This document shows positions 21,151 through 46,220 of a stretch of DNA of 64,000 nucleotides, piece after piece (within the stretch, counting starts at the first letter, position 1; the number at the start of each line of letters is the position of its first letter). The stretch lies in the NCBI RefSeq assembly GCF_029318685.1, contig NZ_CP119677.1, positions 992,001-1,056,000 on the forward strand. Direction: 5' to 3'. Below the pieces are notes generated by a model. That model worked only from the letters and a program-made list of their open reading frames with translations. It was not told the origin of the DNA and did not search any database. This DNA comes from Ruminiclostridium papyrosolvens DSM 2782 (GTDB taxonomy: Bacteria; Bacillota; Clostridia; Acetivibrionales; DSM-1351). A program made the position numbers and the translations under genes.

Positions 21151-22095
21151 ATGCGAAATAAATTACTGTTTAGGATTTTATGTGCGGCAATGATTGTTTC
21201 AGTAGTTTTTGCTGCCTGCGGATGTAAAAAAGAAAAAGACCTAAAAGGCGAAGAACACTTGAAAATAGGCCTTACTCCGGCAGTTGATGCCATACCCTAC
21301 ATAATTGCAAGAGACAAAGGTATTTTTAATAAATTTGGGTTAAAGGTGGATATGGAGGTGTTCAAAAGTGCGGCAGACAGGGATGCTGCATTTCAAAGCT
21401 CAAATATTGATGGTGTTCTATGCGATATGGTAGCTGTCTGCCTTTACCGTAACGCAGGATTTGATGTAAAAATAACCGGAGTTACAGACGGGGACTTTAT
21501 ACTCTTGGCAAACAAGCAATCAGGTATAAAAAACATAAATGAAGTCAAAGGCCACAAGGTTGCAATATCTGAAAATACTATAATTGAGTACACACTGGAT
21601 AAAATTCTGAGTAAAAACGGTATTGGGATTAATCAAGTTGAAAAAGTTCCAGTGCCTTCTATACCCATACGTCTTGAGATGCTTCAGCAGAACAAGGTTC
21701 AGCTTGCCTTGCTTCCGGAGCCTTTTTCTTCCATGGCAATTAAACAAGGTGCTATTGTTCTGGATTCTGCCTACAAAAACAGTATTTTCAGCAATGTAAT
21801 TGCCTTTAAAACTGCTACAATTAAAGAAAAGGCATCAGTAATAAAAAAAATGAATGAAGCCTATAATGATTCTGTCAAATATCTAAAGGAAAATTCAATA
21901 GAAAAGTATCAGAATGAAGTCATTAAATTTATCGGATATCCCGAGGATATGAAGGGAAGTATTATACTTCCGGATTACAGAAAAGCAGGACTTCCGGCTG
22001 ATAGTGAATTGAAATCTACTATTGAGTGGGGCGAAAGGGAACACTTGCTTAATAAAAAGCTTAAAGAAAAAGATTTGAAGGAAATAATTAACTAA
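21151..22095 (+). CDS. ABC transporter substrate-binding lipoprotein, NMT1/SsuA type
   Basis: A 314-residue protein with a lipoprotein signal ending VVFAAC (Cys at about residue 23). It then begins HLKIGLTPAVDAIPYIIARDKGIFNKFGLKVDMEVF, the typical opening of periplasmic-binding-fold proteins of the nitrate/sulfonate/thiamine-precursor class. GGAGG precedes the ATG. It stands alone between two terminators. The only matching ATPase and permease are 4 kb downstream (26091-27579), separated by glnK-amt and an antiporter. The ligand cannot be told from sequence. Confidence 0.85.
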   Translation: MRNKLLFRILCAAMIVSVVFAACGCKKEKDLKGEEHLKIGLTPAVDAIPYIIARDKGIFNKFGLKVDMEVFKSAADRDAAFQSSNIDGVLCDMVAVCLYRNAGFDVKITGVTDGDFILLANKQSGIKNINEVKGHKVAISENTIIEYTLDKILSKNGIGINQVEKVPVPSIPIRLEMLQQNKVQLALLPEPFSSMAIKQGAIVLDSAYKNSIFSNVIAFKTATIKEKASVIKKMNEAYNDSVKYLKENSIEKYQNEVIKFIGYPEDMKGSIILPDYRKAGLPADSELKSTIEWGEREHLLNKKLKEKDLKEIIN

Positions 22096-22110: not shown

Positions 22111-22139
22111 TTGTAAGTTAAAAACATATGTGGTAATAT
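22111..22139 (+). promoter_or_regulatory. Promoter for the glnK1 leader
   Basis: TTGTAA (22111-22116), 17 bases, TAATAT (22134-22139). Transcription would start near 22146, placing the first hexaloop hairpin about 20 bases into the RNA. Confidence 0.5.
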
Positions 22140-22165
22140 ATTACTGTAGTAATTAATTTTTTGAA

Positions 22166-22208
22166 GGCAACGATGCCAATTCTGTATATATCAGAATTGG
22201 CGTTTTTT
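22166..22208 (+). promoter_or_regulatory. ANTAR-type hairpin and overlapping terminator, module 1 of glnK1 leader
   Basis: The hairpin GGC-AACGAT-GCC (22166-22177) has a six-base loop with A at position 1 and G at position 4, the known signature for ANTAR proteins. Its 3' arm is the start of an intrinsic terminator, GCCAATTCTG (22175-22184) pairing perfectly with CAGAATTGGC (22192-22201), followed by G and six T. Formation of one excludes the other, as expected for antitermination. Confidence 0.7.
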
Positions 22209-22242
22209 ATATTAATTTTTATATTTGTTTATTATTAATGCA

Positions 22243-22284
22243 TGGCAATGACGCCGGTTTCTGTGAGGAAATCCGGCGTTTTTT
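22243..22284 (+). promoter_or_regulatory. ANTAR-type hairpin and overlapping terminator, module 2 of glnK1 leader
   Basis: This is a second copy of the same design 66 bases downstream. The hairpin TGGC-AATGAC-GCCG has A1 and G4 in its loop (22247-22252). The terminator GCCGGTTTC (22253-22261) pairs with GAAATCCGGC (22268-22277) with one bulge, then G and six T. No promoter was recognised between the modules, so a transcript must pass both. Confidence 0.7.
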
Positions 22285-22318: not shown

Positions 22319-22657
22319 ATGAAAAAAATCGAAATGATTATCAGACCTGAAAAGCTGGAGGATGTGAAGGAAATATTAAATGAATCACAAATATTCGGTA
22401 TGACGGTATTGATGGTTTCTGGCTGCGGACATCAAAAGGGAAGAAAAGAAATATACAGAGGTGCCGAGGTTACAATAAATCTTCTTCCTAAAGTAATGGT
22501 TCAAACTGTTGTTCACGATGATGAAGTCCAGAAAATAATAGAAAAGGTTACACAGAGAGTGAAAACAGGTAATGTAGGAGATGGAAAGATTTTTGTGTAT
22601 AACGTTGAAGAAGCAGTGAAAATAAGAACAAGTGAGAGTGGTGAAAATGCAATATAA
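22319..22657 (+). CDS. glnK: P-II nitrogen regulatory protein 1
   Basis: A 112-residue P-II protein, the family's usual length. It has KKIEMIIRPEKLEDV at the N terminus, the T-loop HQKGRKEIYRGAEV, and the C-terminal VGDGKIFVYNVEEAVKIRTSE. Position 51, which is the uridylylated Tyr in enteric GlnB, is Val here, while Tyr46 is kept. It binds ATP/ADP and 2-oxoglutarate and normally plugs the Amt channel. It is followed by a small membrane protein and an amt gene, the usual order for GlnK. Two tandem antitermination modules precede it, suggesting that the operon is induced by nitrogen status. Confidence 0.93.
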   Translation: MKKIEMIIRPEKLEDVKEILNESQIFGMTVLMVSGCGHQKGRKEIYRGAEVTINLLPKVMVQTVVHDDEVQKIIEKVTQRVKTGNVGDGKIFVYNVEEAVKIRTSESGENAI

Positions 22658-22916
22658 AAAAGCGGCTGTTATTTTATTGACCTTGTTGTCAGCGGGCATA
22701 TGCCTCTCAGGTATATTCTTTATTTTTTACAGTTGGATGAACAATATAAGCTTCAAAGTATTAAATACAAATATCTCAGGGATATTGTTCGGTGTGGCTG
22801 CTTTATATCTGGGGTTCAGATACCTGCTTTCGGTTTTAAAACTAAAAAAAGAGCTGTATAAGGAATCTTCAGTATTTTCATGGAGTAATTTCAGAAAGCA
22901 AAAGACTGCAAGATAA
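22647..22916 (+). CDS. Small membrane protein in glnK-amt operon
   Basis: An 89-residue protein beginning MQYKKAAVILLTLL, with two clear membrane segments (about residues 5-28 and 43-62) and a basic C-terminal tail. The ATG at 22647 overlaps the end of glnK by 11 bases, so it is probably translated by coupling. I do not recognise a family. Its position between glnK and amt suggests a role with the ammonium transporter, but this is only context. Confidence 0.6.
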   Translation: MQYKKAAVILLTLLSAGICLSGIFFIFYSWMNNISFKVLNTNISGILFGVAALYLGFRYLLSVLKLKKELYKESSVFSWSNFRKQKTAR

Positions 22917-22960: not shown

Positions 22961-24534
22961 ATGAAAAGAGTTGCGAAAATTTTAAGTTTTATTTCAGTAA
23001 TTGCAATACTAACACTGTTTATTTCAACTGTTGTTATGGCGGCAGGAGACCCAACAGGTGCTTCATATACATCCGTAACAGGAAAGGAAACCCTTTCAGA
23101 TGTTGCCAATGCTGCAAGCAGAGCTCAATACAGTGCTAACTTTGTTTGGATTATGATTACAGGTTTTATGGTATTTTTCTTCCAGTGTGGTTTTGCAATG
23201 GTTGAAACCGGCTTTTGCCGTGGTAAAAATGCCGCTCATACAATTACAATGAACTTAATGGTTTTTCTTGTTGGTGCTATAGGGTATTTTCTTGTAGGTT
23301 TCGCATTACAATTCGGAGGCTCGGGAGGAGCTGTAGGCTTGGGAACAGGCGGCTCAGTTTTAAATGGTATGCTTTCAATCCCCGGATTAGGGGGTATTCT
23401 GGGGTATAAAGGCTTCTTCCTGCAGAGCGGAGGAACCTATGATGCAGGGATTTACGCTTTATTCTTCTTCCAAATGGTGTTTATGGACACTACTTGTACT
23501 ATTCCAACGGGAGCAGTTGCGGAAAGAGTAAAATATTCTGCTGTTGTAATAGCTTCGTTTTTCATATCCATGATATATTATCCTGTGTTCGGAAACTGGG
23601 TATGGGGCGGAGGGTGGATGGCTACCCTTGGCAAAAACTTTGGCTTAGGTCACGGGGTTGTTGATTTTGCAGGATCTGCAGTAGTTCACTCCATGGGCGG
23701 TATGATGGCTATTGCAGCGGCTATAGTCATAGGGCCCAGAATAGGAAAGTTCAAAAAAGACGGTACCGCAAGAGCATTTCCCGGACACCATATACCTATG
23801 GCGGTAGTAGGGACCATTATTCTGTTCTTCTGCTGGTTTTCCTTTAATGCCGGTTCTACACTTAACGCCGGAGATTTCAGACTGGCAGTTGTTGCTACAA
23901 ATACTATGATAGCAGGTGCTATTGGCGGGTTGGTTGCAATGTTCTATATGTGGGGTAAATACGGAAAACCAGACCTTCAATGACTTGTAACGGAGCGCTT
24001 GCCGGTTTGGTAGCAATTACTGCTCCATGTGCCTTCGTCAATGCCATAGCTTCTTTTTTTATAGGTGCATTTGCAGGAATACTGGTTTGTATTTCTGTAG
24101 CTTTTGTTGAAAACAAGCTGAAGCTTGATGACCCTGTAGGTGCTATTTCAGTCCATGCCGTAAACGGTGTATTTGGAGTCTTATGCGTGGGATTATTTGC
24201 TGATGGAAGTTACGGTGACGGTATTAACGGTGTAGCAGGAGGAGTAAAAGGCTTATTCTACGGAGACGCATCCCAGTTGGTTGCCCAGCTCATAGCAGTA
24301 GGAGTTCTGATAGTGTGGGGCTTTGGAGTCTCATATGTATTCTGGAAGCTTCTTGACAAAGTCTGGGGTATAAGGGTTAGCCCTGAAGTTGAGATTGAGG
24401 GTTGTGATCTTGAAGAAATGGGGGCTTACGGATATCCTGATTTCCAGATTGTTAAGTCAGAATTGGATTTCCAGAAAGCAGATGACTTGTATTTAAGTAA
24501 ATTGAAAGTCAAAGGTACAAGTTTAAATGCATAA
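22961..24534 (+). pseudogene. amt: Ammonium transporter Amt 1, split by a frameshift
   Basis: Two adjoining frames together make one Amt protein. The first, 22961-23983 (340 residues), has a signal peptide (MKRVAKILSFISVIA ... VVMAAGD), then FVWIMITGFMVFFFQCGFAMVETG and FAGSAVVHSMGG. The second, 23980-24534 (184 residues), opens MTCNGALAGLVAITAPCAFV and holds SVHAVNGVFGVL. In intact Amt proteins these join as GKPDPSMTCNGALAG. Here GACCTTCAATG lacks one C of GACCCTTCAATG, so the first frame ends TGA at 23981-23983. The break is near residue 337, within the core fold. The ATGA overlap could allow reinitiation and two half-proteins. A sequencing error in the C run, a recent mutation or a true split gene cannot be separated here. 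Confidence 0.8.
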
Positions 24535-25888: not shown

Positions 25889-25916
25889 AAAAAGGAAAGT
25901 CACTAACGGACTTCCC
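25889..25916 (-). promoter_or_regulatory. Terminator-like hairpin in the antiporter leader
   Basis: On the minus strand GGAAGTC, a 7-base loop and GACTTTCC are followed by TTTTTATTT. It lies about 80 bases upstream of the TTG start and downstream of a TATAAT at 25969-25964 (minus). That leaves a leader of roughly 150 bases with a built-in stop signal, possible room for attenuation or a riboswitch. No known aptamer was recognised. Confidence 0.45.
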
Positions 25917-26090
25917 TCATTGGAAGACGGACAACAATTATCAAACAGAAATCTCACAGGATTATTATACCATGTTAATTCATAAATCAACAAGCCCCTT
26001 TGATTTACGGGTATCCTTTATTTTTTAAAATTCTAATGCATATATTAGAACGTAATCTCTATTATAAGGTTTATACGAAGGAGAGTGCTT

Positions 26091-35120: not shown

Positions 35121-35181
35121 AAAAAAAGACATTTCACCCCTTAAAAAAATTCTTTAAGGAAGTGAAACGCCTTTGTTTCAC
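35121..35181 (-). promoter_or_regulatory. ANTAR-type hairpin and overlapping terminator in glnN leader
   Basis: On the minus strand GTGAAAC-AAAGGC-GTTTCAC (35181-35162) is a perfect 7-base stem with a six-base loop having A1 and G4. Its 3' arm is the start of a terminator: GCGTTTCACTTCCTTAAA pairs with TTTAAGGGGTGAAATGTC, then seven T (35127-35121). This is the longest hairpin of the set. A possible TATAAA lies at 35203-35198. Confidence 0.75.
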
Positions 35182-38508: not shown

Positions 38509-38572
38509 AAAAAAAACTGTACCAAACAAACATTTTGTTATAAAATGTTTGTTGACACAGCACCTTTGCTGC
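38509..38572 (-). promoter_or_regulatory. ANTAR-type hairpin and overlapping terminator in gatCAB leader
   Basis: On the minus strand GCAGC-AAAGGT-GCTGT (38572-38557) has a five-pair stem (one G-T) and a six-base loop with A1 and G4. The CTGT of its 3' arm starts a long terminator: CTGTGTCAACAAACATTTT pairs with AAAATGTTTG then TTTGGTACAG, followed by eight T (38516-38509). Confidence 0.7.
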
Positions 38573-38591
38573 ATTTAATTAATTTACAACC

Positions 38592-38620
38592 ATTATAATA
38601 TACGTCCTGCAAAAAAGCAA
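38592..38620 (-). promoter_or_regulatory. gatCAB promoter
   Basis: On the minus strand TTGCTT, 17 bases, TATAAT (38597-38592). The start site would be near 38585, only about 13 bases before the hexaloop hairpin, leaving no room for a second upstream hairpin. Confidence 0.55.
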
Positions 38621-38764
38621 TACTTTTTCCAGAAAACATTTTTGTAGGATAAACAAGCCTAATATGTGCCTTTCCGTGATACGGCTATAGTTTCAACGTT
38701 TTATACAATAATTTAGAGGTGGAATCATTTTGCAGGATTGAAAAATGAAAATTGCAAAAAAGTA

Positions 38765-38793: not shown

Positions 38794-38846
38794 ACTCTTG
38801 AAGATAAATTGCAGGTATGTCACATAAATCAAAAATTAATAAACAA

Positions 38847-38905
38847 AGAACAATGGCGTTCTCATAAAAACCTGATTTTAGGGGTTTGTATGAGTACGCT
38901 TTTTT
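38847..38905 (+). promoter_or_regulatory. ANTAR-type hairpin and overlapping terminator in glutamate synthase leader
   Basis: The hairpin AGAAC-AATGGC-GTTCT (38847-38862) has a five-base stem and a six-base loop with A1 and G4. The terminator begins at GCGTTCTCATAAAAACCT, using the hairpin's 3' arm, closes with AGGGGTTTGTATGAGTACGC and is followed by six T. It is 88 bases upstream of the first gene. Confidence 0.75.
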
Positions 38906-38992
38906 GTTACCCGATTATGTGACTGTTATTTTTATAAATATAGAAAATTTATTATTTTGATTTTTATTTTTTTAGTAAAGGAAGTGTACGAC

Positions 38993-46082: not shown

Positions 46083-46147
46083 CAGCAATGAGGCTGCTTA
46101 TAAATCAAATTCTAAATATTGATTTATTAAGTAGCTTTCTGTATTTT
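46083..46147 (+). promoter_or_regulatory. ANTAR-type hairpin and overlapping terminator, module 1 of amt 2 leader
   Basis: The hairpin CAGC-AATGAG-GCTG (46083-46096) has A1 and G4 in its loop. A 16-pair stem with one bulge starts at its 3' arm: GCTGCTTATAAATCAA (46093-46108) with TTGATTTATTAAGTAGC (46119-46135), followed by TTTCTGTATTTT. The T-run is interrupted, so termination here may be weaker than in module 2. Confidence 0.65.
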
Positions 46148-46165: not shown

Positions 46166-46220
46166 TTTATTCACAATGGCGTGTTAAAGAGGATAATTCT
46201 GTCTCTTTACATGCTTTTTT
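46166..46220 (+). promoter_or_regulatory. ANTAR-type hairpin and overlapping terminator, module 2 of amt 2 leader
   Basis: The hairpin CAC-AATGGC-GTG (46172-46183) is extended by TTTA/TAAA after a small internal loop; the loop has A1 and G4. The terminator GCGTGTTAAAGAG (46179-46191) pairs with CTCTTTACATGC (46203-46214) and is followed by six T. An open frame starting at 46181 runs through this terminator but is not the real gene start. Confidence 0.7.

Follow-up and report, generated by a model that had tools for sequence, protein, structure and literature searches.

The ANTAR targets closest to the leaders considered here are those of EutV at eutP, NasR at nasF and AmiR at amiE, where the hexaloops have A at position 1 and G at position 4 and the antiterminator overlaps an intrinsic terminator (PMC3369931). 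The linker between the two hexaloops is 5-12 nt in the eut targets and 2-25 nt in the actinobacterial ones, and EutV antitermination is abolished when the linker is lengthened by 20 nt. NasR has been reported to bind a single hairpin as well, more weakly. Recent work has shown that EutV contacts the two hairpins, P1 and P2, separately and that the minimal motif is one hexaloop, both loops still being needed for antitermination on a transcribing polymerase (Walshe 2022, PMC8934654). ANTAR sites have also been predicted before P-II, amt, nitrogenase and glutamate synthase genes, and Desulfotomaculum acetoxidans has at least 13 ANTAR systems in six transcription units (Ramesh 2012, PMC3369931). 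In Clostridium acetobutylicum a nitR antiterminator is mentioned in connection with ammonia assimilation (PMC4676874). ANTAR control of such genes is already known (Ramesh 2012), and recognition of a single hexaloop has already been proposed (Walshe 2022).

Here we describe leaders of nitrogen genes in Ruminiclostridium papyrosolvens DSM 2782 and its relatives, starting from a window (the whole stretch of DNA analysed) of 64,000 nucleotides. Similarly to the eutP, nasF and amiE targets, these leaders contain A1/G4 hexaloops and antiterminator candidates overlapping intrinsic terminators. Unlike in the parts of the literature compared here (PMC3369931, PMC8934654, PMC8164766, PMC7496416, PMC4676874), there is one hexaloop per terminator with no P1 above chance level within 25 nt, two full units may follow each other with their loops 68-188 nt apart, and position 1 may be G. 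The Walshe 2022 model shares with our leaders the single hexaloop as the recognition unit; it requires both loops, however, whereas many of the leaders described here have lone loops on terminators. The D. acetoxidans systems are similar in that more than one occurs per transcription unit and in their link to nitrogen genes, but they are matches to a dual-hairpin model, and side-by-side placement in one leader is not stated in the compared part of that article. The C. acetobutylicum case shares the nitR antiterminator and ammonia assimilation, but no RNA target of the single-hexaloop form is named in the compared part of the source. No report of a doubled module or of a single-hexaloop terminator leader was found in the open-access literature searched.

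The glnK1 leader

A sequence-only reading of the window had proposed two hairpin-terminator modules upstream of glnK1, at 22166-22208 and 22243-22284, and both were borne out (Table 1). The 5' arm of each terminator is the 3' arm of its own C-closed hexaloop hairpin, and both loops have A at position 1 and G at position 4 (AACGAT and AATGAC). When folded from the predicted start, the leader is more stable than shuffled sequences (z -3.42, with 1 of 200 shuffles as good) and both terminators are formed. The 12-mer GGCAAYGAYGCC was found twice in the window with at most one mismatch, both matches being exact and located in this leader; at least two matches were also obtained in 9 of 100 shuffles. 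The pair of bare 12-mers is weak evidence, and the case for a double module is based on conservation and terminator overlap, not on the statistics of the 12-mer.

Table 1. Positions of the leader modules and associated features. Coordinates refer to the window unless a contig is given.
Feature	Position	Strand	Remarks
Candidate promoter, TTGTAA-17-TAATAT	22111-22139	+	TG before -10; kept in three aligned leaders
Hexaloop hairpin 1 of glnK1, GGC-AACGAT-GCC	22166-22177	+	Antiterminator candidate; identical in G005 and G008
Intrinsic terminator 1 of glnK1	stem 22172-22204, T6 at 22203-22208	+	-17.5 kcal/mol; also matched by terminator scanner
Hexaloop hairpin 2 of glnK1, (T)GGC-AATGAC-GCC(G)	22243-22256 (core 22244-22255)	+	Conserved
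Intrinsic terminator 2 of glnK1	stem 22250-22280, T6 at 22279-22284	+	-17.8 kcal/mol; conserved; missed by simple scanner
glnK1 (P-II), first gene of glnK1-amt1 unit	22319-22657	+	PF00543
Single module of Na_H_Exchanger-family antiporter, CTTCC-AATGAG-GGAAG with terminator	25892-25926	-	
Single module of glnN (type III glutamine synthetase), GTGAAAC-AAAGGC-GTTTCAC with terminator	35127-35181	-	
Single module of gatC-gatA-gatB, GCAGC-AAAGGT-GCTGT with terminator	38516-38574	-	Nine genomes aligned; G006 has one too
Single module of GOGAT-glnA-nitR, AGAAC-AATGGC-GTTCT with terminator	38847-38900	+	
nitR, sole ANTAR (PF03861) gene of the genome	45429-46013	+	Pfam: receiver domain and ANTAR
amt2 leader module 1, CAGC-AATGAG-GCTG with hairpin/terminator	46083-46138	+	Poor T tract
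amt2 leader module 2, CAC-AATGGC-GTG with terminator	46172-46215	+	
Later-fetched match L288, CTC-AATGAT-GAG on strong terminator	G000:C1:748526		Ahead of Peripla_BP_2 gene

A GlnK search among 60 relatives yielded two close glnK1 orthologs, in G005 and G008 (95% identity). Both modules and both terminators, not just one of them, are kept in all three genomes where the glnK1 leader was found, as the alignment of relatives proposed in the sequence-only reading would have it. The loops are the same in the three genomes; the stretch between the modules differs and is shorter in both relatives, so that the loops lie 78, 68 and 69 nt apart. The linker in R. papyrosolvens, approximately 65 nt, is far beyond the 5-12 nt of eut and the 2-25 nt of the actinobacterial targets, which agrees with the earlier remark that the hairpin spacing is unusual. 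The leader shares with the dual-hexaloop targets the A1/G4 loops, the overlap of hairpin and terminator in both modules, and an ANTAR protein encoded in the genome.

The candidate promoter ahead of module 1 has 8 of 12 consensus matches by our own count, which is below the cut of the scanner; a transcript from it would start near 22145, approximately 20 nt ahead of hexaloop 1. Between the modules the scanner placed two sigma-70-like matches on the plus strand, but such matches are at chance level in the region (three on both strands against a shuffle mean of 2.5) and, judged by eye, neither is conserved in G005 and G008, where the first has a shorter spacer and the second lacks its TATTAT. A promoter between the modules is thus not supported. 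The stop codon of a lipoprotein-like, co-directional gene is at 22095, 70 nt upstream of module 1, and terminator 1 could merely end this gene, with the hexaloop there by chance and module 2 alone regulating glnK1. This is very unlikely, as the conserved promoter-like site lies between the gene and module 1, the three genomes do not differ in module 1, and the nifH and amt3 leaders of the same genome are doubled likewise behind divergent genes, so that their first terminators are not the ends of upstream genes.

Downstream, a 94-codon frame, hydrophobic by eye and without a Pfam match, lies between glnK1 and amt1 (22632-22916). In R. papyrosolvens amt1 is represented by two overlapping frames (22961-23983 and 23980-24534), while a single open frame is present in G008 (563 codons) and G005 (541 codons); the split would be due to either a frameshift or a sequence error.

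Single-hexaloop units across the genome

Hexaloops overlapping terminators were searched for, and the search was then repeated without the loop rule over 1.26 Mb. The loop form common to the nitrogen leaders is a C-closed RANGRN (A/G, A, any, G, A/G, any). In 2.06 Mb of the R. papyrosolvens genome (41% of it, picked partly around known glnK genes) there are 109 C-closed hexaloop and terminator sites with any loop, among which RANGRN accounts for 14 and seven other loop classes for 0-4 each. Thirteen of the 14 RANGRN sites precede nitrogen genes, the antiporter and gatCAB being classed as nitrogen-linked by judgement and the rule having been refined on part of the data that it recovers: amt3-glnK, glnK1 and amt2 have two sites each, and an Amt-family gene, the antiporter, glnN, gatC, GOGAT, anfO and nifH have one each. 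The second nifH module of this genome is just under the filter of the RANGRN scan. The fixed rule gave one match in 0.8 Mb fetched later, before a periplasmic-binding-protein gene without an evident part in nitrogen metabolism (Table 1), which neither confirms nor contradicts a nitrogen regulon.

Several other elements were seen near these sites. The anfO-family gene is divergent from nifH and has its own single module (L142, G000:C1:3259645). The GOGAT module is flanked by GTCACATAA (38819-38827) and TTATGTGAC (38915-38923), which could pair around it. The motif TTTTGCAGGA occurs in four copies in the window, two of them, at 38605-38614 on the minus strand and 38728-38737 on the plus strand, near the divergent gat and GOGAT promoters; it is perhaps a DNA-binding site.

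A second hexaloop hidden upstream of the single modules was also considered. The 111 distinct RANGRN modules span all the loci gathered, including close orthologs and some non-nitrogen matches; their loop position 1 is A in 85 and G in 26, within the search rule. Another hexaloop with A or G at position 1 and G at position 4 ends no more than 25 nt upstream in five of the 111, compared to 3.6 expected from shuffling, in a scan that is uncalibrated on a known dual site. No P1 upstream of single modules was conserved, as judged by eye, and none rose above chance. The first hairpin of the amt-like, amt3 and gat leaders is preceded by a -10-like sequence whose end lies 8, 13 and 17 nt away, respectively; if this sequence is the promoter, there is no space for a P1 in these leaders. 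The single-hexaloop anatomy, i.e., the site of Walshe 2022 with its G4, fits both single and doubled leaders, where binding is only predicted.

One or two units per leader

The loci of the relatives were scanned on both strands. Besides the glnK1 leader, doubled in all three genomes where it was found, the nitR-amt2 leader is doubled in six of eight (R. papyrosolvens, G004, G005, G006, G008 and G010), its module 1 being degenerate in G007 and G003. The amt3-glnK leader is doubled in three of four genomes (R. papyrosolvens, G006 and G008; one module was seen in G007), a count that leaves out G003, G004 and G010, the G010 contig beginning inside the gene. The best nifH copy has a doubled leader in eight of ten genomes, the exceptions being the ANTAR-bearing G001 and G009, where it is module-free, as are the further nifH copies (L196-L201). 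Within the genus the loops of doubled leaders are 68-151 nt apart; two amt leaders of another genus look doubled as well, at 78 and 188 nt and with poor T tracts. The sequence-only reading was right that each glnK1 hairpin has its own stop, but the arrangement is not peculiar to glnK1, since doubling was also seen in the leaders of amt2, amt3 and nifH.

Other leaders have a single module. One precedes GOGAT-glnA-nitR in R. papyrosolvens, G005, G006, G007 and G008, and one precedes glnA-nitR, GOGAT not being found there, in G001, G004, G009 and G010; no module was seen in the GOGAT/glnA leader of G003. The single gatC module is present in R. papyrosolvens and in all nine ANTAR-bearing relatives of the genus. 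The terminators of the G006 gat and G007 GOGAT modules exceed 50 nt, the latter module having been read by eye. Single modules were also found before glnN, the antiporter, an amt-like gene, and amt-glnK of G001 and G009, and at anfO or its place in eight genomes.

These lone units bear on how the two glnK1 hexaloops are to be read. They could represent the P1 and P2 hairpins of a single conventional ANTAR site, drawn out by the intervening hairpin and contacted as a pair, since the studied targets have two hexaloops and a shortened terminator-1 stem could draw the loops closer together. We regard this as unlikely: the loops are anywhere from 68 to 188 nt apart, depending on the leader and the genome, a lone unit is found upstream of each of GOGAT or glnA, gat, glnN, the antiporter and the amt-like gene, loop 1 overlaps its own terminator, and the action of EutV is lost with only 20 additional nt. 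Of the earlier proposal, the two hairpins and two stops are retained, while their designation as P1 and P2 of one site is not. The basic ANTAR unit looks to be one loop per terminator, and the glnK1 leader two such units.

Alignments of the terminators add some evidence of structural conservation. In nifH terminator 2, 99.0% of the cells are paired, one pair occurs as AU, CG and UA, and the covariation score was reached by 4 of 500 shuffles; in the gat terminator 94.8% of the cells are paired and the score was reached by 1 of 500. The nifH terminator 1 is 98.4% paired with covariation no better than in shuffles (139 of 500), and the antiterminator stems, which hardly vary, show no covariation within a leader.

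NitR and the proposed switch

The nitR gene follows glnA and precedes amt2 and glnK2 in a GOGAT-glnA-nitR-amt2-glnK2 cluster inside the window, approximately 23 kb from the glnK1 leader. A search of the named genomes with the NitR alignment gave ten loci, four of them distant. The EutV-type receiver Asp is absent from NitR, in which Asn60 aligns with the phosphoacceptor Asp54 of EutV, and its His169 and Met177 align with Tyr164 and Met172 of EutV (numbering of Walshe 2022, with an inferred two-residue offset). Asn60, His169 and Met177 are invariant in the ten orthologs of the genus, R. papyrosolvens included. The receiver can be described as a pseudo-receiver. Because Asn60 replaces the phosphoacceptor Asp and is invariant, phosphorylation is unlikely to be what activates NitR. 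AmiC-AmiR offers a model for a NitR acting with a partner protein, and on this analogy glutamine synthetase would be our guess for the partner.

G002 lacks an ANTAR gene, and neither GlnK nor Amt was matched in it. The 19.9 kb around its gat genes contain gatA, gatB and the agmatinase gene, the last of which runs straight into gat with no module; GOGAT, glnA, nitR, amt2, glnK2 and glnN were not found in this region. Both the genes and the gat module could have been lost from the region in one deletion. The antiporter leader of G002 has kept its terminator, while its hairpin (CTACC-ATTGTA-GGAAG) has a stem broken by an A.A and a loop that retains A1 and G4; elsewhere the hairpin is CTTCC-AAYGAG-GGAAG (R. 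papyrosolvens, G005, G006 and G008) or CTTCC-ACTGGG-GGAAG (G004). The antiporter module is missing in the ANTAR-bearing G001, G009 and G003, and no close antiporter ortholog was found in G007 and G010. As a natural control G002, the one ANTAR-less genome whose modules were counted, is suggestive only: it has lost ANTAR, and its modules are missing or damaged. Among 58 genomes of the order, Amt was found in 41 of the 48 with ANTAR and in none of the ten without it (Fisher p 4e-7, uncorrected for kinship or completeness).

Since the modules are linked to NitR by inference and the NitR receiver has no phosphoacceptor Asp, they might answer another RNA-binding protein or a small-molecule ligand. 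It is hardly probable that they do, given that the loops, with the form A/G1-A2-N-G4, conform to the ANTAR rule and that the loss of ANTAR in G002 is accompanied by loss or damage of the modules. In addition, no Rfam family was found for the leader modules at gathering score; the window yields tRNA only, and the best weak match is frnS (21.1 bits against a gathering score of 60, E 0.14). NitR is retained here as the probable regulator.

For the eight modules of the window, the antiterminator hairpins have forced energies of -0.1 to -6.8 kcal/mol against -12.8 to -22.1 kcal/mol for the terminators, which are 8 to 17 kcal/mol stabler. As the antiterminator stems are short and the terminators strong, everything would depend on protein binding. 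We consider it probable, from sequence, that the glnK1 leader consists of two ANTAR-type antitermination units in series, each rescued by NitR through one hexaloop. By default the polymerase would make the strong intrinsic terminator in each unit. Active NitR would bind the hexaloop as it emerges and hold the short hairpin, which would sequester the 5' arm of the terminator, and transcription would continue. One hexaloop per terminator would suffice, with no nearby P1, unlike in the eut, nas and ami targets.

In the glnK1-amt1, amt2, amt3 and nifH leaders, with two units each, the polymerase would have to be rescued twice. If a fraction r passes each unit, the output would, by arithmetic, be proportional to r squared, and a steeper response or a lower leak, as the sequence-only reading had suggested, is plausible. 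The unit at the head of the GOGAT-glnA-nitR cluster is single, and as nitR belongs to this cluster, NitR may increase its own amount.

For this order of Firmicutes we are inclined to think that the basic ANTAR switch consists of a single hexaloop with one terminator, and that tight control may be obtained by copying the whole switch. One copy would precede the assimilation genes (GOGAT, glutamine synthetases and GatCAB) and two the ammonium-transport and nitrogenase genes, where NitR would act twice, while the single copy before the nitR cluster would provide positive feedback. The extent to which single hexaloops can serve ANTAR function was left open by Walshe 2022, since both loops are necessary for EutV to act on a moving polymerase. 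The single-loop switches described here form a natural set, some of them in leaders whose predicted start allows no second loop, and make this question directly testable. They would also broaden those searches for ANTAR targets that require two hairpins, and the doubled leaders offer a natural case in which to ask how far leak and steepness benefit from serial termination checks.
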